Source of the DNA: Ectocarpus siliculosus
Taxonomy: Eukaryota; Sar; Phaeophyceae; Ectocarpales; Ectocarpaceae
Length of the DNA stretch: 64,000 nucleotides
Reading direction: 5' to 3'
Assembly (NCBI GenBank): GCA_000310025.1
Contig: FN648151.1
Coordinates: forward strand, 327,621 to 391,620
This document shows positions 26,382-61,667 of this stretch, in pieces. The translations under genes were made by a program, and so were the position numbers. Each line of letters starts with the position of its first letter. Within the stretch, counting starts at the first letter, position 1. Under the pieces are notes generated by a model. It was not told the DNA's origin, did not search any database, and worked only from the letters and a program-made list of their open reading frames with translations.

Positions 26382-29300
26382 ATGAATATGTTGGTGGCCC
26401 CCTTCCGCTACATCCTGGCTTGGGTCTCCCCCAAGAGTGAACGGTGGGTGCCTGAATCGCTAGTACTCCGTGGTTAGCAAGAAAATTTGGGGTCATGCTT
26501 TGAGTATGACTAACGACCCCTTTTCTCTACCCCTCACGGTTGAACAAATGGTTAATGCCCGCCGCACCAGAAGCTACACGTGGTGCCGGCTTTCCTGCGA
26601 GATGCTGGAGGAAAACTGTGCCCGTTGCCTCCCCCTCCTGCCCAAGCCGATAAACACCCCGAACTGGCTCGCCTGGTTAAGGTCTGCACTGACACCGACA
26701 GAGACCGTCGGGTGTGTTGCTGTTGCGGCGTTGCTGTTGGTCGCCCTGGCCAGAAGGGTCGTCAACGGAAAGCGGTGGGTAGCTCTGTTTTCCCATGAAA
26801 TAGCAGAGTTTGGTCTATCAATAGACTATCGAACTACAATATTCTACCCGACTCAGTCTATACGAACGTTGTTCTGTGTACAATATAAAGAGACAATGAC
26901 AGCAGCAACAACAACGTTCGTTGTGTCACGTGTTGGCTAATGATATCCACCCGGTCAAAAAACAATTTGCAAAAAATCAAGCGCATGGAGGGTCTGACGG
27001 TAGACGCTTTTAACATCTGATGCTTGATACCCTGTCCTCAAAACAAAGGTCGAAACGCGATGCCGAACACACCAAGAAACGATACGACAAGTCCCGAGAA
27101 TGTATTCGGAAGATTAGGCTCCGAGTGTACATCTGGTACGTTCTATTTCGACGCGCCGTCAAGCTACGAGCTCCAGCTCGTTCCCAGCAGCTGCGGATCT
27201 GCGCCGCCCGGATGCCTCCATCAGCGGTGGCGGCATCGTTGAGGCCTCCGGGCCTTCCTCTCCCGGAATCGCTCCGGGAGGTGGCCGTTGCTGACGGTAT
27301 GGTCCTTCAGATCCCGGGGCTGTCATTCCACTTCTCCAATGACCCGACGTCGACACTTTTGGTGGAGACGTTTGGCACACTACAACTCTTCCGAAACCGT
27401 CGGGACACCTCTTCCTCTGACTGCCTAGATGATGGTGACGAGGGGCATCGTCTCGTGCACCCCGAAGAAATGGAACTAACGGTTACCATATTTTCGTCGG
27501 CACGAGCGTATCACGGCCGAGGTGACCCGGGCGCTGCTCCCCCACCGTCCGGGGAGCACGCAATGGACGCTACGGGATTGGTGTTCAAGATGATGATGAC
27601 GTTCACACCACCATCACCGCCCTCGGAGGGCCTGGGCCCGTCGATGGCGGCGGGGGCGACCATTAACCTTTCAGATTTTGGCTGGCTCGGCAATTCGACT
27701 AGGGCACTCGATCTGTCTCAATATCTACACTCTCCTTCTACCGGTCGCAGCAGGGTGAGCACAGCGGGTTCTATGTCCCCAACAAGGTGCATCACCTAAG
27801 GGTCTGATCTGAAACAATCCAAGCAGTGGGTGCGGTACTCGTGCCACGCATAGATTGACTCTGACTATTTTGTCATAACAAGAACTGAGAGGTGTTGCAT
27901 GTGACCTGGTTGTACCAATACTGTTTTCGTCGACACAAACTTGTTTCCCGCGACAAGTGGACTTGCCGGCTCGTCTCCAGGCAGAATACGATCGAAGCCA
28001 TATCAATCTATAACCCATCATCTATCATCTCGCATCCTTTTAAGAGAAGGTTTCAACATTTCTCATCACCTGCGAGGAGCTAGCTAAACACCACGACCAT
28101 CGTTCAATCGGTGGTGTCGACCGCCCCAACAACATTTTCCAACAAGATCTTCCTGTCGTACCTGTTTCCGTCGTTCCCGTCTAACATAAGGGTGACCTCC
28201 TGCCACCGGGAGGACCCGCCTTCGACCTGTTCGAGCCGGAACGGGAGCCCCCGGTGAGTGTAAATACACAAATGCTGTTCTTGTCTAAGAGGTATAAAAA
28301 ATGGCCAGCTCGTAACACGCGTAAGTTGGCATCCCGTCGGCATCCCGACGGCATCCAGTCTCGTCTCCAGGCAGAACACGATCGAAGCCATATCTCTCTA
28401 TCATCCATCACTTTGCATGCATTGAAGAGAAGGCTTCAACATTTCTCATCACCTGCAAGGAGCTAGCTAATCACCACGACCATCGTTCAATCGGTTGTGT
28501 CCACCGCCCAAACAACATGTTCCAGCAACATCTTCCTGTCGTACCTGTTTCCGTCCTTCCCGTGTTACATAAGGATAACCTCCTGATACCCCGAGGACAA
28601 GCCTTCGACCTGTTCGAGCCAGAACGGGAGCCCCCGGTGAGTGTCAATACACAAATGCTGTTCTTGTCTAAGAGTTATAGAAAAACCCAGCTTGTAACAC
28701 GCGTAAGTTGGCATCCCGTCTCGTCTCCAGGCAGAATACGATCGAAGCCATATCTCTTTATCATCCACAATCTTGCATGCATTGAAGAGAAGGCTTCAAC
28801 ATTTCTCATCACCTGCGAGGAGCTAGCGAAACACCGTGACCACCTTTCAATCGGTTGTGTCGATCGCCAACAGTATCTTCCTGTCGTACCTGTTTCCGTC
28901 CTCCCCGTGTAACATAAGGGTGATCTCCTGATTCCCGGAGGACCGGCCGTCGACCTATTCGAGCCGGAACGGGAGCCCGTGGTGAGTGTCAATACACAAA
29001 TGCTGTTCTTGTCTAAGAGCTATAGACAAACCCATCCTGTAACACGCGTAGTAGGTGGACATACCGTCCCGTCTTCAGGTAGCACACGATCGAAACCACA
29101 TATACATCTATTATCCATCACTACCTTCGTTTCTCCCTCCCCGTCTAGCGGCAGGTTCAACTCCTGCACGCGAACGGGCCGAACCTATCACTGCTTGACA
29201 CGGTCGACGAGGAGCCCGCGGTGAGTGTCTTTGCAAGATTGTGTTCGTCGGAGAGCTATATCAACAGCTCCCGCGACATTCGCCTCACAGCAACGTAGCC

Positions 29301-32300
29301 ACCGTTCGTAGACGACATGCCACGAGGAATAGGGTCTAGGCGCACAATTACTTGTTGTATATATTTTGGTATGCTCGTGCATGCTGCTTGGGCCGAAGAA
29401 CATCGTGGTGGGTGGATGCGACCACGGTAGGCCTGCGGAAGCAAGTTAGCCCGGTGCGTCGCCTGCAGAATGGGCGTCTCTTCGCAAGATGTTCAAAGTT
29501 CCCATTTTTTCAAGACCCCCACCCTTCCCGTAGTTTCGGGCGAGGGACATCTGCCAGAATTCGTTTCTGGTCCCCAGCCCTGCGGCAAACTCTGAGTAGC
29601 TACGATTTTCGCCATGATGCCTTTTCGCTTTTGTTTCAGTCAGGCGCGTTCGCGGATCTTCGTTTTTTCACGCACAAGACCACCGGGGAAGTGTTCGCCC
29701 TGAAGACCGCAGAGGTGAATTCAGCTGGGAAGTGTTTTCTCGTTGTCGAATTGCAATGCGGCGACATGATTCTAAGGACGAGTATTCTGAACTGCAAAGG
29801 CTCCGTGGTCCACCACGTGCTGTATTTGTTCTGTGCTTTTACTTTACATCAACAAGGGTAAATCTCATAATCATCCACCAGAGACCGACGTGTGGTGCCG
29901 TGCATCCACTGAGTTTGAGCGTTGTACGGTTACGATGGCATTGGATTCAGTCAAGCAAGGCATGTGAATCCTGGGTCAACAAACCACGATAAGACCTTGA
30001 GCCACGAAACATCCACACAACATAGTTCCGCAGCGCGGCGAGTGCCCAGGGCAGCGCGTGGTTTCAAGGTGGCCGACGTTGACGCACTTGCCAAACCCTC
30101 CTTCGTGGTCTCTCTGAAGGTCTTGCACACACCTTCCATGCGCCCCACGCTTGCCATTCAAATCCCACCAAACTCGGAATTCCTTTTGATCAATTTCAGG
30201 ACACACCCGAGGGGATTAAGAACATCCTCGCGGAGATCAACATCCTTCGCGAGGTGATCGGCAGCGCTCCTCGTCACATTGTGAAGGCTATTGAGACCAG
30301 AGCGACCCCAGTGGCCATGATACTCACCAAGGCGGAGCCCAGGACGTTGAGATGCATCGGAGACAGCCCTGGTGCTTCGAATGCTGGCGACACCGTCAAG
30401 TGAGGCAAATACGATGCAGGCCTTCGTGTGTCGTCAGGTGTGATTGTGTCATGGGTTTGGCTCACCTTCAGACAAGCCCAAACATTCTGCATGATGACCA
30501 CCGTACCGGAAAAGAAGGATTCCTGGTGCTACAGTGTATTCTCTTCATTGAACAATAGCAGACATCCTCATCCCATACATTGTGGTGCATGAACTGGACC
30601 GCGCCAAACCTTGACCGTGCTGACGTAGACAACCTTGCTATCTTTGTAGGCTATATTTGAGGTGACTTCGCAAATATATGATAATAGACGACCACGAGGC
30701 TCAACAATTGTCCCCCCCGGCGTGAATCGTGTTCCCCCTGCTGGTCGGGATTTCCAGGGTGCTTGACGGAGTCCTGACGGCTATCGAATTCCTTAGCTCC
30801 GAGGGGTTTCTGCACCGCGACATTAGGCCTGAGAACATCCACGTATCCGGGGACGGAGAAGGACTTCTGGCCGACTTTGGCCTTTGCACCCACAAGGAGA
30901 TAGCGGTCCTTCCCTGGCAGATCGGTGCGGGTACACCGGAGTACCAGGCTACAGAGGTGGCGACCACGGGGTCGTCCCTATGCTCCGAGCTATTCGCTGT
31001 CTCAGTCTGCTTCCTGGAAATGATGCTCAGCCGAAACCCGTTTGACGGGAAGGTGTGTAAGGCAGGAAGACGAGGGTTCGGCATTGTCGCGCATGGATGT
31101 AGAAACTGGAATTGACTATTAGCATAACCCTTCGGTGTAGAAAGGAGTACCGTGTTCACGCAAGCCGTTTCATTCATGAATGTGTGCAAGTGGAAAGCGT
31201 GTGATCACGTCCCGAGAACAAACATTTCTTGTCACTGTCAACTCTTAAGCAACGTTCCAGCGGGTTGAAAAGGTGGCATCTAACCCTAGATGATGAAATA
31301 AGGAGTGTTTCGCAAACATACCTCCTCGCTGACACGTTCAGTTTCAGTCCAAGCTTCTGCACGTGCTACATGTAGGCCTACCGCCAAAACAACGTGTTCG
31401 GGTTTCCTGCCCCTTGTCTGTGTCGCCACGCCGTAAACTGTAACATGCTGCAACGTCCAGGCATTGCGGTTGGCCAGTGAACGGCGGAGGTCTTACCTCG
31501 AAGGGGTAAGAAAAGAGCTACTCCACGTTCTATCACATCATGCCGAGGATGGAAATTATCGGGGTCACCTTGCCCCCGACCACCACATGGAATCCCAAAA
31601 CAACGAGCGCGAAGCACTAGCGGAGGCATCCTCTAGGCTGGAAAACACACGCAGAACGGAATGGGTGAGACCAAAGTGAACGAGATGAGACTACTTACAA
31701 GGGACAAAATTTGGGATGGGATGAAACGAGGTACTTTGCGTGTGGCATAATACCAAAGGGCAACGTGAGGGAGAACGAGGGCCCTTTTCTCGGTAGCGAA
31801 CAACAACCAACGCCGAAAGCTACGTAGTGCAATACAGCACCTGGTTATGCTATAGTATAAACAAATACGCGGGAGGTCGAATTTTGATGCGTCACTCATG
31901 GAAACGCGCAACTTCTTGGAGGGGAAACCGGCTTGAAATCCAGTTTCTTCCGTCGAGGGAAAGAACATCGCTCATTGCTCCTTGTACTACAGCGACGACG
32001 TGAGCTTGTGGTCATTGCCAGGAAGGCGTACGTAGTGCTCTTCTTGTAGGATAGTGCCGGAATGCTTACAATAGTTCAAGTTTGGTCAGTTTGCAGGATA
32101 TAAAAGACCCACTCTGTTCTCAACGGGTGCATTTCGACAAGGTAGTACCGAAAAACATGTTCCAGTCTACTATCTACATAGGCTAACAACCTTGTGTGGA
32201 ATAATTCTACGTAGGAGATAATTGGTGGCGTAGTAGGTGTTACTCCGGTCTCGACCTTGGCTCGACCTGATTTGAACCGACTTCTTGCACCAGACGGACC

Positions 32301-33228
32301 CGTCAATTATTGCTGATTTGTATTCTGCTGTTGTTCTCGTGCTGCACAAAACCGATTGAACCAAGCAGCTCCTCGGCATTCGCAGCGACGAATGGCGGCC
32401 GGACGCGGAAGCTCTGTCGGCACTGGCCAGGACAGAAGTACCTCTGGAAGTGTACGTCGTGCCCAGCCAGGCCGACACCCGCTCACGGGAGATCAAGGAG
32501 GTGAGAGAAACTCCCACAAACGTGGAGAAATACGAGACAGTTATGAATAAACGATACCTTCATTGGGGTGCGTAAAAACAGAGCTGAGCTCTTGGGTTGC
32601 ACGATTGTATCCAAGATTTACGTAGTCACAGGAAGAGCCCGTTGAGGTTTCACCTGCATCTCTCCGCGGCCCCATCAAACTGGCCCAACGCTGAGAGAAG
32701 ACTTGAGGGTGCATGCGGCACGCGAGATTTCATATTGACCAAACCTGTTTCTACGGCAGTGGTACCTTTAGTGTTCATACGAGTTGAGAATTAATCGATA
32801 TGATAGAGAGTAGAGGAGGATAAATTTGCACATACTATGTTCATACGAAGATGAAAAGACCAACCACGGGACACGCTGCAGCACTAGTGAAAATATAGCT
32901 CTTGTCTTGTGCCTGACTCTCAGCTTCCTCTATGCAACACGTGGCCCCCCCATCGTCTGCGTCCCTCACGTTGTCCCAGAACTGGGCGGGAGTCGAGGCG
33001 AAGAGTTCTCCTCGAAAGGTGTTCGAGGCGGCCGATTGGACGGAATGGCTTCCCGGCACCACCAGGGTGCCTTGCACCAAGGGTCTCCGCAAGATCGTGT
33101 CTTTGGTGGTGGAGAAAGGCATGCTAGATCCGAACCCTGGCGGTAGACCCCAGACCACGGCCGCCTTGCAGGGTCTCCTCCACGAGGCCCTGAGGCTATA
33201 TGAGACTACCGAGGCAGAAGGGGAGTAG
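26382..33228 (+). CDS. Protein kinase with tandem micro-exon array before the kinase domain
   Basis: Twelve exons join without a phase break: 26382-26443, 26571-26774, 27118-27754, micro-exons 28191-28253, 28574-28636, 28919-28981, 29155-29220, then 29640-29714, 30200-30399, 30758-31052, 32369-32500 and 32980-33228 (stop TAG). The sum, 2109 nt, encodes 702 residues if all are used. Kinase motifs: SGAFADLRFF (Gly loop, third Gly replaced by Ala), VFALKTAE (beta-3 Lys), FLHRDIRPENI (catalytic loop; Arg where Lys is usual), LLADFGLCT (Mg site), GTPEYQATE (APE region as ATE) and GMLDPNPGGRP (C-lobe end). Residues roughly 62-82 (TVGCVAVAALLLVALARRVV) look like one membrane span, so it may be membrane-anchored. 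The first three exons and the 32369-32500 exon are joined by phase only. The variant residues leave activity uncertain, though Lys, both Asp and Asn remain. Confidence 0.75.
27976..29235 (+). repeat. Tandem array of ~360-bp units each carrying one 63-66 nt exon
   Basis: Four units start near 27976, 28362, 28723 and 29068 at (G)TCTCCAGGCAGAAYACGATC; spacing is 386, 361 and 345 bp. Each contains an AAG or CAG acceptor, an exon of 63 nt (66 in the fourth) and a GTGAGTGT donor. The first three exons share LFEPEREP. The introns are duplicated too, so the array arose by recent tandem duplication of exon plus intron. Confidence 0.85.
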
Positions 33229-35521: not shown

Positions 35522-38500
35522 CCCCCCTGCTTGTGACCATGCCATGTCTTTTTCGATCCTCAAGAACTCCAAAACACAAGAAAATAAACTCAGAAACTCA
35601 ACTCAGCTCCAGAACAATAGCCTCACTGGCTAGACATCAATACCCATCCCCGGTCATATCAGATATACTTCTTCGAGCTTCAGTGAACTAATTGCCCCCC
35701 AGCCTAGAACACCATCCATTGAGAAAAACCATAGGCAAAAATGCAAAATGTTGCCACCCTAGTTGTTTGATCACACACAAAATAAACCCAAACATCAAAA
35801 TATTAATCCATACTCATTACGAAGTTACGATGAAACTTGAAATTTCCCACGTTAAGTGCCTTCGTGAGGAAGTCAGCATGTTGATACGCCGATTCCACGT
35901 GAAAAATCGAAATCTCCTTCCTGCGTACCAAATCCCTGATAAAGTGGTGCCTTACGTCGATGTGCTTCGAGTTACTGTTGCTAATCGGTTTCTGCGCCAA
36001 CTGAATAGCCCCCTGGTTATCCTCGAACACCGGAATACACGGCATACCTGCTTCTGGCAACATGAAACGCCGTACTTGCCTCAGAAACAACACTTCCTTC
36101 ATCACATCCGCAAGAGAGACATACTCCGCCTCTGTCGTGCTCAACGTAACGCACTTCTGCGTCCTCGAAAACCAAGAAATTCATCCCCCCCCCACACATC
36201 ACCAACCCTCCTGACACAGACCTCCTATCGGCAGCCTTACTTGCATAGTCTGCGTCTGCGAACACCTTCATGCTCAACCCTGCTACACTACCCCTCCTGA
36301 ATGTAATAGCCAAGTCACTAGTCCTTACCACATACCCCAAAATACCAAGACCTGCTCTCCAATGAATCTCTTTGGGAGAAGCACAGTAACGTGCTACCGC
36401 TCTCACTACGTTCGCGATATCTGGCCTCGTTTGCGTTGCCAGCCACATCAATGATCCTATCAGCTCACAAAAAGGCCTTGATACCACTTCTTCATCTTGG
36501 TCAAACTCTGAAAGCTTCAACCCTACAGGAAGAGGAATTTCCTTCCCGTACTCTACCCCAAACTCCATCCCCAACTCTTCAGCGTACGTCTGCTTCGAGG
36601 TATTCAAAGTCCCTGCATCCCAATTTTCCAAGAATAAAATCTCCTCTACCACCTGCTCCCTCAGGTTGTGATCGCTGTTCACAACCAAACATCCTGTGAA
36701 AACCTCGAAAATAAAATCCTACTCGTTCAGGCTCGACCTCGTACTCAAAAAGACCAAACACAAAGCCGAAGCACCACAAAACAAAGCCAAAACAATGAGA
36801 ACACGAAATAAGAAAAGTCACACCATTGGTCACATGAAGTATTTTTGCCGGCCCATCAACCCCAGCGCTTTCATCCATCCCTCCTGCCACTGCTTCTTCT
36901 CCGCGGTAGCCACCCTCGCCTCTGCCGCGGCCACCCTTTTCTGCTGGCATCGCCGCGGCTCGGGCTTCATCAGGTGCCACGTATCCGCCTGGGTGGGGTG
37001 GGTGCAGCTGTCTCTCCGGGGGGATTGACTCGGCAGTGCAGGGGAGATTGCGCATCCGAAAGGGAAAGGCACAGGCAAAATCAGTCACCCAAAGCGTCAA
37101 TTTAGCACGTGGCACTGCTGGGGAGAATACCTTGCAATACGCCCCCGGTTCTGCGCAGCAGTGATCGTTGTCTTTCGCATTCTGTACGACATCATGGTTA
37201 CCTATCAAATCGAACGCCAATCTACGACTGAGGTTAATTACTCCTCTTTCGTAAAAGTGACACAACGATTCTTGGGATTTGTCTGACAAGGTTAATTATT
37301 CCTCGGTCACGCAAACAACAATGTTGGATCCATGTTAGAGCTTACACAGCTGTGTTTCTGATCAACAACCCAACACATCTTCTTCTTACTGGTGTGCAAC
37401 CACTGCGCTGCTTTCGTGCATACAGTGTTCTGGTACGAAATGGAGATCATTTCCATGTATTCCTGTCGGTTACACAGACCCCTGACCAAACTTCCAAGTG
37501 TATCCCCCTACAACTCCTACCGCTAGACATGCAACAGACTCCTGTTCGTAACACGCAACTCATTGTCGGTAGAGGGTACAAAGATTCATGACGCCTTCGC
37601 ATATCCCGTTATCGACGTGAACGCAAAAATAATGAGTCGGAGATCAATCTCTGTATTTTAACACAAGAGGGACAAAATATTCCCATCAACTTCAAAGCAC
37701 TCAAGAAGGTATAGGCAGCAGCTTGGTTAGGATTCGCTGACACTCTCATCTAATCTTCAGTTTCTGTGGGTGACTGGCAACCTTACGTGGCGTAGTAGCC
37801 ATACAACCTCGCAGTTTTGTGGGTGACTGGCAACCTTACGTGACGCAATATCCATTTAACCTCGCAGTTTTGTGTGGGTGACTGGCAACCTTACGTAGAA
37901 TAGAAGGCCCTTTGATGGGGTCTACTGCTGTACCTCTCAGGAAAAACATGTGCAAGATGATGACGCCTGTGTATGCAGAACTCAACAAGGTGTGCTGTAG
38001 GTTTATCGGAGCACACCCAAACGAAATCGACGAAGACCATACAACATCCGAAATTGGCTCTCAAAAACCTGTACTCTAACCTGGACATCGCCACTAGAAT
38101 CGAACACACCCGTAAATGGGGCTACATGTATTAGTCTACAGGACTGACACGGATGGTGTCCTTGGGGGGTAAGACTTCCCTGGTTTCCTCCCCCGGGGTG
38201 TTGGTCCTTCGCATTGCCCGCGCGAAGGACTCAACGAGACGGTCCTCCAACGATCGTGGCTGGTCTTCAGGTTGCGGGTCTAACGCTGTTCCAGCCGGCC
38301 GAGCATGCCGGGGATCGCCTCCATCGGGGGGCTTGTCCACGCTCTCTGATGCGGGACGCTTCTCTTCGGTAAACTTGATTTTTTCTTGTACTCCCTTCTC
38401 CACTTCCTCTTTGATGTGCGCCGATAATGCTTGGCGGTCCTCTTCAGTTAAGCTGCTGAGGTCGAGGGCTTCCATGATCTACTTCTCTAGCCGAACCCTT

Positions 38501-46938: not shown

Positions 46939-48805
46939 TTTATCATTGCACATGGCTGACCAGTAGACTATCATGTGTTGAATGAGCGTGCGTGGAGAAG
47001 GGACCGGTCTTTTACCGGTCGCCTGTTGGGCTTCCAATACAAGCACCTGTATTTGGCACAACACGTTGGTGCACCGAACGTGGAACCGCCCAGGTGGTCT
47101 GAACTAGAACTTCCCCAGGTAAAAGCCAAACACCAACAAGTTCGCCGCAGGACGCGGTGCGCAATATGTACACCACATACACCTCGCCCACCACATCTTT
47201 TCCCGCGCTGAGTACAACGCCAGAAGCAAAACCAAAAACAAAACGATTCCTGCTAGGCATTGTTTCACTTGTCGTGACATTCCACATGCAGCGTGATCCG
47301 AGACCGCAAAACAACTGGTAGATGAAGGCACAAGCAAAACAACGATTCCGGACACATCCCCACACCTACCCTGGGAGGGGGACATTAGGAAAAATTTCCA
47401 CGTGACCGAAAAAACGCCCCGGTTTAGAGATTGTTTAACACAAAGGTACGGCTGAGTCTTAAGCAACGTATATATCGGGATTTTGTTTGGTGGGGGGGGT
47501 CATTTGCTTAGCCCAAAAACATTTGGGCGTCCTACGCGTAGGACAATGACGAATTCCAACAACGCACTCCAGAGAGGGGCTTTAGGTCGACGACATCCAC
47601 AAACTGCAGCCAATGGCGTGTGGTCATACACATAGAATACAACCTCTGCTCGCGTCCCAGAAACAGCGCGTGTGTTTCAGTTTTGATTGCACACGGCCTG
47701 CAAACGTGAACCAAAATGTGTTTCGGTGTTGACTTTGTGTTTACTTTTTCTGGTTCCGCCGCGTGTTTGCTCCGTGTGTCACCCGCTACCAGTCAAAAAT
47801 GCATACCAGAGGGAGGCTTTAGGCGGATGACATCCACAAACTGCGGCCAATGGCGTGTGGTCATGCTCATACCCTCTGCTCACGTCCCAGAAACAGAGCG
47901 TGTTGTCCGTTTTGATTGGACACGGCCTGCAAACGTGTACCGAACTTTGAATCGATGTTAAAACTTTTTGAACCTTTTTCTTGTTCCGCCGCGTGTTTGC
48001 TCCGCGTGTCACCCACTACCAGTCAAAAACGAACGCCAGAGGAAGGCTTTAGGCGAATGACATCCACAAACTGCAGCCAATGGCTGTGGTCATACACATC
48101 TACCCTCGGTCGCGTCCTTGAAACGGAATGGTTTGTTCAGTTGTGATTGCACACGGTTTGCAACCGTGAACCGAGGTGTGTTTCGTTGTTGACTCTTTTG
48201 TACGTTGCACGTTCTTCCAGTTGCACCGCGTGTTGTCAGTCCACAAAGCATGCCAGAGAGAGGTCTATGGCCGACGACATCCGCAAAACTGCAGCTAAAG
48301 GCTTGCCATCATACACATGCCTTCTTGCAGGCGACCCCAAAACAGGGCGCTCTGTGTCTTGTTGGTCGCACACGAGCCGAAACCGTGAACTGAAGCATGC
48401 TGTGACCCACGAAAACGTGAGCTGACCTTTTTTTCCGCGGGGAACATAATCTGCCTCGAGGAGCCGTAAGAAGGTCGCTCGGATCTGAATTATTTTCCAC
48501 TTGCAAACATCCCCCCTCAGACAGAGAGAACAAGAAATATCCCCGAAAAAAACGGTGCTGAACTATTGTTTGTTATTTGTCACGCGTCTGGTCGATATTT
48601 GAGAGAAGCCTAGATCCTGCCGTATTGTCTGAAATCGGACCCCTCGCATAGAAAAAAGGCATCAGACACAAGCCCAAACCTGAGGCCACCATGTCCTGGG
48701 AAGCGGGAAGCCGCTGCTTCAGCGCCCAGATCACACCCACCCGCCAGACTTTCACGACGCCCGTGCAGGGTCTGCGGAGGCTTAACTCCACGTGGTGTGG
48801 ACGAC
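46939..48805. repeat. Dispersed repeat, copy 2, interrupted by a tandem-repeat block
   Basis: Left part 46939-47470 matches 33674-34480 without the SINE. Right part 48556-48805 matches 34485-34735 (GAAATCGGACCCC, GCCGCTGCTTCAGCGCCCA). The two parts are adjacent in copy 1, so about 1.1 kb was inserted here. Confidence 0.65.
47471..48555. mobile_element. Probable insertion carrying four ~230-bp tandem units
   Basis: Units start near 47580, 47818, 48047 and 48264 at TTTAGGYSGAYGACATCCRCAAACTG-like sequence, with CCAATGGCGTGTGGTCATRC in the first two. The ends are loosely inverted (TCGGGATTTTGTT...GGGGGGGTCATTTGC against the right-end complement). The architecture recalls the 22.4-24.8 kb elements, although the sequence is different. 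No coding potential is recognised. Confidence 0.5.
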
Positions 48806-59900: not shown

Positions 59901-60800
59901 CATGTTGAGTCTGTAAAGCGCATATTTGACCGCCCGTTGTCGAGGAAACAACGACAAGCACGATGGCGTCGAGGCTATTGACTGCTGGATGTCAGCGTCG
60001 TTGTGTTGAGGCGTTCCTGTTCCATTCAAGAAACTTGCTTCAACTGGTGAACGGACACCAAGAAACTACACAAAACGTGTTCCAACACGAAACGTGTTCC
60101 AAAACCCCAAGTTGGCAGGTCCAAGACTCACGTTGATCGTTCTCTCTAATGACGGACTCGAAACAGAGAAGCCACTCCGAGTCTACAGCAGTTTCGCGCA
60201 GCCAAGCTGTTTTGTTTCGATGTCTCTCAGGTCTTTTGCACAAAGGAGAACAGGGTGATTTCCAGTGGAATTGGTCGAGAGAGGAACGATGTCACACGAC
60301 GAGACGAATCCCGTCGCTCCCGGCGGGTTTTGAATCAGGGACGTGGGAACGTTCGGTGTGAAACCAAAAGTGCGCGTTGCGTCCAGGAACTCACGCTTGA
60401 AGCACCGACCGCATAATAGACCCAAACCAGCCGCAGAGAGATACGGCTAGACAGAGGTTTTGGTCAGTGCTCACGTGAGAGGCAACCTTTTTCTTTGCAG
60501 CATGAGGCCATCTCCAGTGATCTTGGGACAACTGCGAGCGTAGCCTTGACGAAGAACGCGGTGTACAGGCATTGGCGATGGAACGCCTACGTCTTTTCTA
60601 CCCCATGCGAAACGACATGGCGGACAGTCTGAACAAACCTAGAGAGGAAGCAGGGACACGCCGTCAGTGGGGTTGCGTGATGCATTGCATTGTCCCTCGT
60701 TGCTGCCCGATGCCGCCCGCACACTTGTGGGAACAACACCTGTTTGTCACTGGAATGCGCATTCTGCTCGGAATTTTTCCAAACCATAACGTTTCTGCAG
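56985..60800. other. Gene-poor, isolated possible exons only
   Basis: One isolated candidate exon near 59478-59558 (QAPKEGLRARHKGAMRQWW then GSGCTQDGDEIG) ends at a GTAAGT donor. Otherwise frames are short. The 5' exon(s) of the EsV-1-7 gene should lie in the right part. Confidence 0.3.
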
Positions 60801-61667
60801 TCAACACCTGTGATCGCCAGACACCGTGGACGGGGACAACCAAGCTGCGAGGAGATCGGCTGCTCAATGCGGCCATCGTACGGCAAAGACAACAGCAAGA
60901 AGGCGGAATTCTGCTCTCAGCATGCGAAGCAGGGTATGGTTAATGTCGTTCACAAGAGGTGCGGTCATACAGCGTGCTCCACCAGGCCGTCGTATGGTGA
61001 CGCCGGCAGCAAGAAGGCAGAGTTTTGCTCTCAACATGCGAAGCAGGGTATGGTTAACGTTCGCAACAAGAGGTGCGGTCATACAGCGTGCTCCACCAGG
61101 CCGTCGTATGGTGACGCCGGCAGCAAGAAGGCAGAGTTTTGCTCTCAACATGCGAAGCAGGGTATGGTTAACGTTCACAACAAGAGGTGCGGTCATCCAG
61201 CGTGCTTCGCTAGGCCGTCGTATGGTACAGCCGGCAGCAAGGCGGAGTATTGTTCTCGGCACGCGAAGCAGGGCATGGTCAATGTCGATCACAAGAGGTG
61301 CGGCCATCCAGGTTGCATGAAGCAGGCATCATATGGTACACCCGGCAGCAAGAAGAGGGAGTTCTGCTCCCGGCACGCGAAGCAGGGCATGCATTGTGTC
61401 AGCAACAAGACGTGCGGTCATCCAGGTTGCATGAAGCAGGCGTCGTATGGTGATACCGTCGGCAGGAAGGCGGAGTTCTGCTCCCAGCACGCGAAGCAGG
61501 GCATGCTTAGTGTCGTTCACAAGAGGTGCGGCCATCCAGGTTGCATGAAGCAGCCGTCATATGGTGACGCCGGCAACCGGAAGGCGGAGTTCTGCTCTCC
61601 ACACGCGAAGGAGGGCATGATTGACGTAAGAAATGGAATACGCCAGAGGTCACGGCTTACGGTATAA
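60801..61667 (+). CDS. EsV-1-7 repeat protein (seven repeats), last exon
   Basis: The frame is open from the acceptor TTTCTGCAG at 60792-60800 to the stop at 61665-61667. It contains seven tandem units of C-x4-C-x16-C-x2-H-x12, the EsV-1-7 motif named after an Ectocarpus virus gene. It is known in brown algae from the developmental regulator IMMEDIATE UPRIGHT and a large cellular family. Typical unit pieces are CGHTACSTRPSYGDAGSKK and AEFCSQHAKQGMVNVRNKR. The first unit starts CEEIGC; the fourth is one residue short in the 16-residue spacer; the last has a divergent tail (RNGIRQRSRLTV). Cys and His are conserved in all seven, consistent with metal binding. The frame continues upstream only to a TTG, so the start codon is in an unseen 5' exon. 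Function in this gene is unknown; a regulatory role is inferred from family. Confidence 0.88.
   Translation, partial: STPVIARHRGRGQPSCEEIGCSMRPSYGKDNSKKAEFCSQHAKQGMVNVVHKRCGHTACSTRPSYGDAGSKKAEFCSQHAKQGMVNVRNKRCGHTACSTRPSYGDAGSKKAEFCSQHAKQGMVNVHNKRCGHPACFARPSYGTAGSKAEYCSRHAKQGMVNVDHKRCGHPGCMKQASYGTPGSKKREFCSRHAKQGMHCVSNKTCGHPGCMKQASYGDTVGRKAEFCSQHAKQGMLSVVHKRCGHPGCMKQPSYGDAGNRKAEFCSPHAKEGMIDVRNGIRQRSRLTV

Follow-up and report, generated by a model that had tools for sequence, protein, structure and literature searches.

Tandem duplication of a micro-exon ahead of the kinase domain in a protein kinase gene of Ectocarpus siliculosus

A 64 kb stretch of the Ectocarpus siliculosus genome (contig FN648151.1; C45:327621-391620 within the 189 Mb assembly in which all genome searches were made), referred to here as the window, contains a protein kinase gene in which four micro-exons lie in tandem directly before the exon carrying the glycine-rich loop (Gly loop). 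The array is a genuine, well-formed tandem exon duplication. All four micro-exons run from phase 0 to phase 0, their lengths are multiples of 3, and the exon upstream ends in phase 0 at 27754; they are thus adjacent homologous exons of the same phase with splice sites, as tandem exon duplicates are defined. Homology, phases, splice motifs and the presence of one exon at this place in each of three paralogues are read directly from the DNA. As to how the copies are used, we tentatively favour, at a little under an even chance, a constitutive copy 4 with copies 1-3 as optional alternatives that would depend on weak acceptors.

The micro-exon array and its host gene

The original prediction had described four tandem phase-0 micro-exons of 63, 63, 63 and 66 nt before the kinase exon, encoding in frame the lead-in to the Gly loop. 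The first part was borne out, with the qualification that the last exon may be 72 nt, and the second was supported by the analysis below. Units 1-3 are 82-88% identical to one another across 354-360 nt. Unit 4 is homologous to them over 56-61 nt at its start and over 40-50 nt of the intron 3' of the exon. The introns separating the micro-exons are 320, 282 and 173 nt long. No stop or frameshift was found in any of the four copies, and all GTGAGT donors are intact. The Pfam score of the joined kinase domain hardly depended on the copy chosen (74.3-74.7 bits with none or with copy 1, 2, 3 or 4); since the match starts at profile position 9, these scores cannot rank the copies. Longer exons starting from a CAG near the beginning of the unit were ruled out for copies 1 and 3 by an in-frame TAA just 5' of CATAAG. 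In copy 2 the corresponding frame is open (28325-28912), so that a longer exon could be formed from this copy alone.

The joined kinase domain matched PF00069 with 74 bits against a cut-off of 31.7 (E ~1e-20), and the catalytic motifs FALK, HRD and DFG were present in the translation. By both the Pfam match and the motifs, the predicted product is a protein kinase. The upstream frame (27014-27754) shared 42% identity over 139 aligned positions with the paralogue C29, in which a stop lies near the start of the frame. No Pfam match was obtained with the two pieces of the N-terminal part tested; a membrane segment, read by eye, is likely there. The C-terminal part matched only the paralogues and relics described below (5 places in the genome, counting itself).

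Table 1. Features of the kinase gene and its micro-exon array (window coordinates)
Feature	Position	Strand	Remarks
Host gene	~26383-33228	+	start placed by eye
Open frame with upstream coding exon	27014..27754	+	exon start uncertain; reaches GTGAGC donor in phase 0
Tandem unit 1	27969..28329	+	unit alignment, blastn
Micro-exon 1, GDLLPPGGPAFDLFEPEREPP	28191..28253	+	63 nt; AAG acceptor, GTGAGT donor
Tandem unit 2	28351..28710	+	unit alignment, blastn
Micro-exon 2, DNLLIPRGQAFDLFEPEREPP	28574..28636	+	63 nt; AAG acceptor, GTGAGT donor
Tandem unit 3	28711..29060	+	unit alignment, blastn
Micro-exon 3, GDLLIPGGPAVDLFEPEREPV	28919..28981	+	63 nt; AAG acceptor, GTGAGT donor
Tandem unit 4	29061..29264	+	diverged, without a large part of the intron that precedes the exon in units 1-3; position of right end approximate; blastn and alignments
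Micro-exon 4, RQVQLLHANGPNLSLLDTVDEEPA	29149..29220	+	ancestral-like; 72 nt with TAG acceptor, 66 nt from 29155 with CAG acceptor; GTGAGT donor
Kinase exon K1, SGAFADLRFFTHKTTGEVFALKTAE	29640..29714	+	Gly loop, beta 2-3, ATP lysine; PF00069 alignment opens with SGAF at profile position 9; junction placed
Kinase exon K2	30200..30399	+	paralogue comparison; junctions read from sequence
Kinase exon K3	30758..31052	+	HRDIRPEN and DFG; motifs read from sequence; 72% identical to C29
Exon K4	31461..31664	+	paralogue comparison, junction placement
Exon K5	32369..32500	+	AAG immediately 5' of its CAG acceptor
Last exon K6	32925..33228	+	start approximate; C-terminal part common to paralogues; 66% identical to C29

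Paralogues with a single exon and the order of events

With only the best candidates scored, genome searches identified three more family members containing the last exon as well as both kinase exons, namely C29 (locus L016) and an inverted pair on C19 (L017 and L018). The identity of K3 to the window gene was 72% for C29 and 45% for the C19 pair. The two C19 loci lie ~36 kb apart, and their identity of 96.3% across 6.9 kb points to a recent inverted duplication. Two loci on C2 (L045 and L046, C2:8244000-8258900) hold N-terminal and last-exon pieces of the family, with the last exon on both strands, and no kinase exon was found in them; the last-exon match from C2 contains two stops, and these pieces are probable gene relics. 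Beyond this genome, viral contigs scanned at the protein level with K3 yielded no relative, and an exact 26-nt pattern was unmatched there too.

C29 has a single micro-exon of 72 nt (QNRELLLPDGPNLDLLEPSEGDPA, L016 5972-5901, minus strand). With blastn against a small local database, units 1, 3 and 4 matched this exon with E values of 1.6e-5, 4.5e-6 and 0.002, so by sequence similarity the match is beyond chance. The homology was limited to the exon with at most 34 nt upstream and at most 18 nt downstream. Since C29 holds one exon at this place and is matched only over the exon and its near splice flanks, the units are true exon duplicates. The equivalent coding exon of the C19 genes is longer and ends in LNMDLCILDGVNS before DGGFGDV (L018, by eye); its assignment rests on position, since its sequence similarity to the C29 exon is weak (E 0.51). 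When each of the three paralogue loci was searched with its own exon, a single strong match was obtained and no further copy. Whole-genome DNA searches revealed no extra copy of the array (one matched itself only, another units 1-3), at a sensitivity at which unit 4 and the C29 exon likewise went undetected.

The junction before S/D-G-x-F is identical in place in the window gene, C29 and the C19 gene. A junction just inside the Gly loop thus appears common to the window gene and the three paralogues found; the array was seen in the window gene only. In listings against solved kinases, many rows start at paralogue residues 24-26, where the junction lies (for example, residue 25 aligns with residue 19 of MELK 4cqg), and others start further on. 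We take the start position in MELK 4cqg to be the Gly loop and the segment before it to be strand beta 1 of the kinase fold, which would place beta 1 on the micro-exon.

The splice signals point to an order of events. Exon 4 has two in-frame acceptors, a TAG giving 72 nt and a CAG giving 66 nt. Copy 4 and the C29 exon have in common the acceptor CCCGTCTAG at the same position, the length of 72 nt and one codon that is absent from copies 1-3. In copies 1, 2 and 3 the ancestral TAG site reads TAA, TTA and TAA, respectively, and an AAG acceptor lies six bases downstream. Copy 4 therefore looks like the ancestral copy. Because copies 1-3 have lost the TAG acceptor and their use of AAG differs from the other junctions, they are probably derived exons with weaker acceptors. 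Closely spaced in-frame acceptors, which might vary the beginning of the exon by one or two residues, were observed both in copy 4 (29149-29154, TAG followed by CGGCAG) and in C29 (L016 ~5972, TAG followed by CAG).

Divergence of the copies and their likely use

Since copies 1-3 have kept donors, tracts and frames but carry an AAG acceptor, they are most likely optional exons. The array could have arisen as follows. An ancestral exon for strand beta 1 and the first Gly-loop residue would have been duplicated in tandem within its own gene. Copy 4, which keeps the C29-type acceptor and length, would be the constitutive exon, and the founder of copies 1-3 would be a single copy that lost its TAG acceptor and was then amplified. 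These three copies, with their strong donors, pyrimidine-rich tracts and open frames, would rely on AAG and be included at low or regulated frequency. If included, they would alter the stretch preceding SGAFADL or make it longer, and would replace Ala by Pro or Val at Gly-loop position 1; this splicing outcome, like any effect on kinase activity, is inferred.

The original prediction held that exons 1 and 2 differ at about 10 of 63 sites and five of 21 residues, with flanking introns under 10 percent, and that exons therefore diverge faster than introns. The counts were accurate: nine of the 63 sites differ, 8 of which lie within nt 1-31, with five residues changed and 28/289 (9.7%) in the introns of units 1 and 2. 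The generalization was not statistically significant among copies 1-3, for which the pairwise exon differences were 9/63, 10/63 and 12/63 versus 28/289, 37/275 and 29/282 in the introns (Fisher p 0.27, 0.69 and 0.08). The ratios of nonsynonymous to synonymous divergence (dN/dS, NG86) for the same pairs were 0.93, 0.33 and 0.45. When the first exon half alone was compared with the intron, p was 0.014, 0.18 and 0.018, uncorrected and with the split suggested by the original prediction; this half is the most variable part of copies 1-3 (10/30 sites vs 5/33).

Across units 1-3, variable sites made up 15/63 of the exon, 6/82 of the splice flanks and 38/192 of the remaining intron. The flanks were less variable than the remaining intron (Fisher p 0.011) and than the exon (p 0.008). 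The exon did not differ from the remaining intron (p 0.48), so exon sites are no less variable than far intron. Constant splice signals beside freely changing codons are compatible with optional exons whose protein sequence is hardly constrained, with young copies or with diversification.

For copy 4 against copies 1, 2 and 3, the excess of exon over intron differences was significant. The exons differ at 26/63, 30/63 and 28/63 sites (41-48%) and the alignable introns at 23/107, 22/110 and 20/96 (20-22%), with p values of 0.008, 0.0002 and 0.002, or 0.013, 0.0005 and 0.008 when the 8 nt at the start of the donor were left out; the three contrasts are not independent, the sites are few and local alignment depresses the intron figure. 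Other gap placements gave 27-32/63. With the best placement, dN was 0.69-0.76 and dS 0.41-0.74. Of the exon sites of copies 1-3, 13 are common to C29 alone and 5 to copy 4 alone (12-13 vs 5-6 over three gap placements), and copy 4 has 9 sites common to C29 alone. This sharing, set against the intron divergence, suggests that the exons date back roughly to the split from C29 and that the introns are younger. The contrast is equally compatible with selection on the exons and with introns homogenised by recombination between units.

When the copies were compared with C29, dN/dS under the best gap placement was 0.44, 0.61, 0.45 and 0.34 for copies 1 to 4, and 975 nt of the other exons gave 0.35. 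These values suggest that copies 1-3 were under coding constraint in the past. A comparison of codon positions with the other exons, a test without power here, gave p above 0.4 throughout.

Several results weigh against optional use of copies 1-3 and bring a close rival into play, in which these copies are decaying and unused: a tandem duplication would have taken in the exon, the founder would have lost its acceptor, the copies would drift as intron, and copy 4 alone would be spliced. We consider this possible, with something under one chance in three. Besides the lost TAG and the single exon in each of three paralogues, it is favoured by the acceptors at 16 placed junctions of three genes, all CAG or TAG and none AAG (0/16). 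Outside this set are the junctions of K6 in the three genes and those of the N-terminal part, among which one may be an AAG on visual reading. The 15 variable exon sites of copies 1-3 fall on codon positions as 5, 4 and 6, which together with the intron-like rate (p 0.48) means that protein constraint since the amplification is not visible. The dN/dS relative to C29 is sensitive to gaps, a second placement giving similar values and a third 0.81-1.06. Against decay stand the absence of stops and frameshifts from every copy, the intact GTGAGT donors, the conserved splice flanks (p 0.011) and the dN/dS of 0.44-0.61 under the best placement; open frames, however, often survive anyway at 9-12 differences per pair, and the limits of the flanks (45 and 37 nt) were picked after the alignment had been viewed.

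It is unlikely that all four copies are always joined in series, giving the pre-kinase linker three extra 21-residue segments. The phases and lengths would allow this and the introns pose no obvious bar to joining neighbours, but the acceptor triplet of copies 1-3 is unlike all 16 others placed and the three paralogues have one segment only.

Slightly less probable still is the array of the original prediction, mutually exclusive and selected for diversity, with one beta-1 strand per transcript. The divergence of copy 4 from copies 1-3 and the variable first half of exons 1-3 would agree with it, and the principle exists in the kinase FYN. However, the exon excess among copies 1-3 is not significant, and the site sharing with C29 (13 vs 5) is explained equally well by exons that separated early and introns that were homogenised afterwards. 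Neither frame nor spacing supported exclusivity, and no frame-based or pairing-based device was found; in a crude scan for RNA pairing, no helix exceeded the best of 10 mononucleotide shuffles in 12/12 comparisons. It is doubtful, to the same degree, that this brown alga diversifies beta 1 and the lead residue of the Gly loop through a Dscam-like or ROCO-like micro-exon array, with splice signals held constant and coding sequence driven apart.

Comparison with other repeats and known exon arrays

Tandem repeats with a period of at least 200 were found in the window at the micro-exon array and at 47557-48174, and an EsV-1-7 array of 114-bp units was reported once at period 339. None was present in 95.5 kb from 20 other loci, a sample biased to kinase loci. 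From these counts, tandem duplication of such size is neither unheard of nor common here; the array is ordinary in kind, and its place and copy number are unusual. The second array (47557-48174) has 2.7 copies of a 230-bp unit and no overlapping open frame of at least 150 aa. The open frame at 60681-61664 carries seven stretches of the EsV-1-7 cysteine motif (PF19114, E 1.3e-119) with a DNA period of 114 bp; this family is characteristic of brown algae and of the viruses that infect them. A minus-strand open frame at 36017-36718 resembles what we take to be a Copia-type reverse transcriptase/RNase H tail, and had no Pfam match at E 0.01.

The remark in the original prediction that no such arrangement was known for a kinase was overturned by FYN. 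In this human Src-family kinase, according to PMC9741552, mutually exclusive tandem exons span the linker and the beginning of the kinase domain, which holds the ATP site in the ATP-binding N-lobe; FynB and FynT are tissue-specific as transcripts and proteins, and four related kinases kept one exon each. The window gene is similar in having tandem exons at the edge of the kinase N-lobe and relatives that keep one. Unlike FYN, with its two exons described there as mutually exclusive, it has four micro-exons and belongs to a kinase of another kind. Like tandem exon duplications generally (PMC9741552), it holds in-frame local copies of one exon with splice sites, but it differs in being an array of four in which three have lost the ancestral acceptor. 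Brown algal ROCO genes are reported (PMC11378527) to have tandem same-phase leucine-rich repeat (LRR) exons of 72 bp with alternative splicing and diversifying selection. The window array shares with them the tandem, same-phase small exons, whereas the ROCO exons are in phase 2 and encode binding repeats, and the window exons are in phase 0 and encode a single kinase segment. Literature searches combining tandem exons with the glycine-rich loop returned nothing, and among the papers listed for brown algae with mutually exclusive exons none dealt with a kinase array, as judged by title or the start of the abstract. A listing on JNK exons as another possible kinase precedent yielded nothing usable.

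The window gene unites the themes of FYN and the ROCO genes and adds no new principle provable from DNA. If copies 1-3 are not used, the array would be an example of exon duplication followed by loss of the acceptor. If they are used, one gene would give rise to kinases differing only in beta 1 and Gly-loop position 1, which would be a clean natural test of how the edge of the ATP site tunes activity. It would also be a second brown algal habit of exon arrays, beside the LRR arrays of candidate immune receptors.
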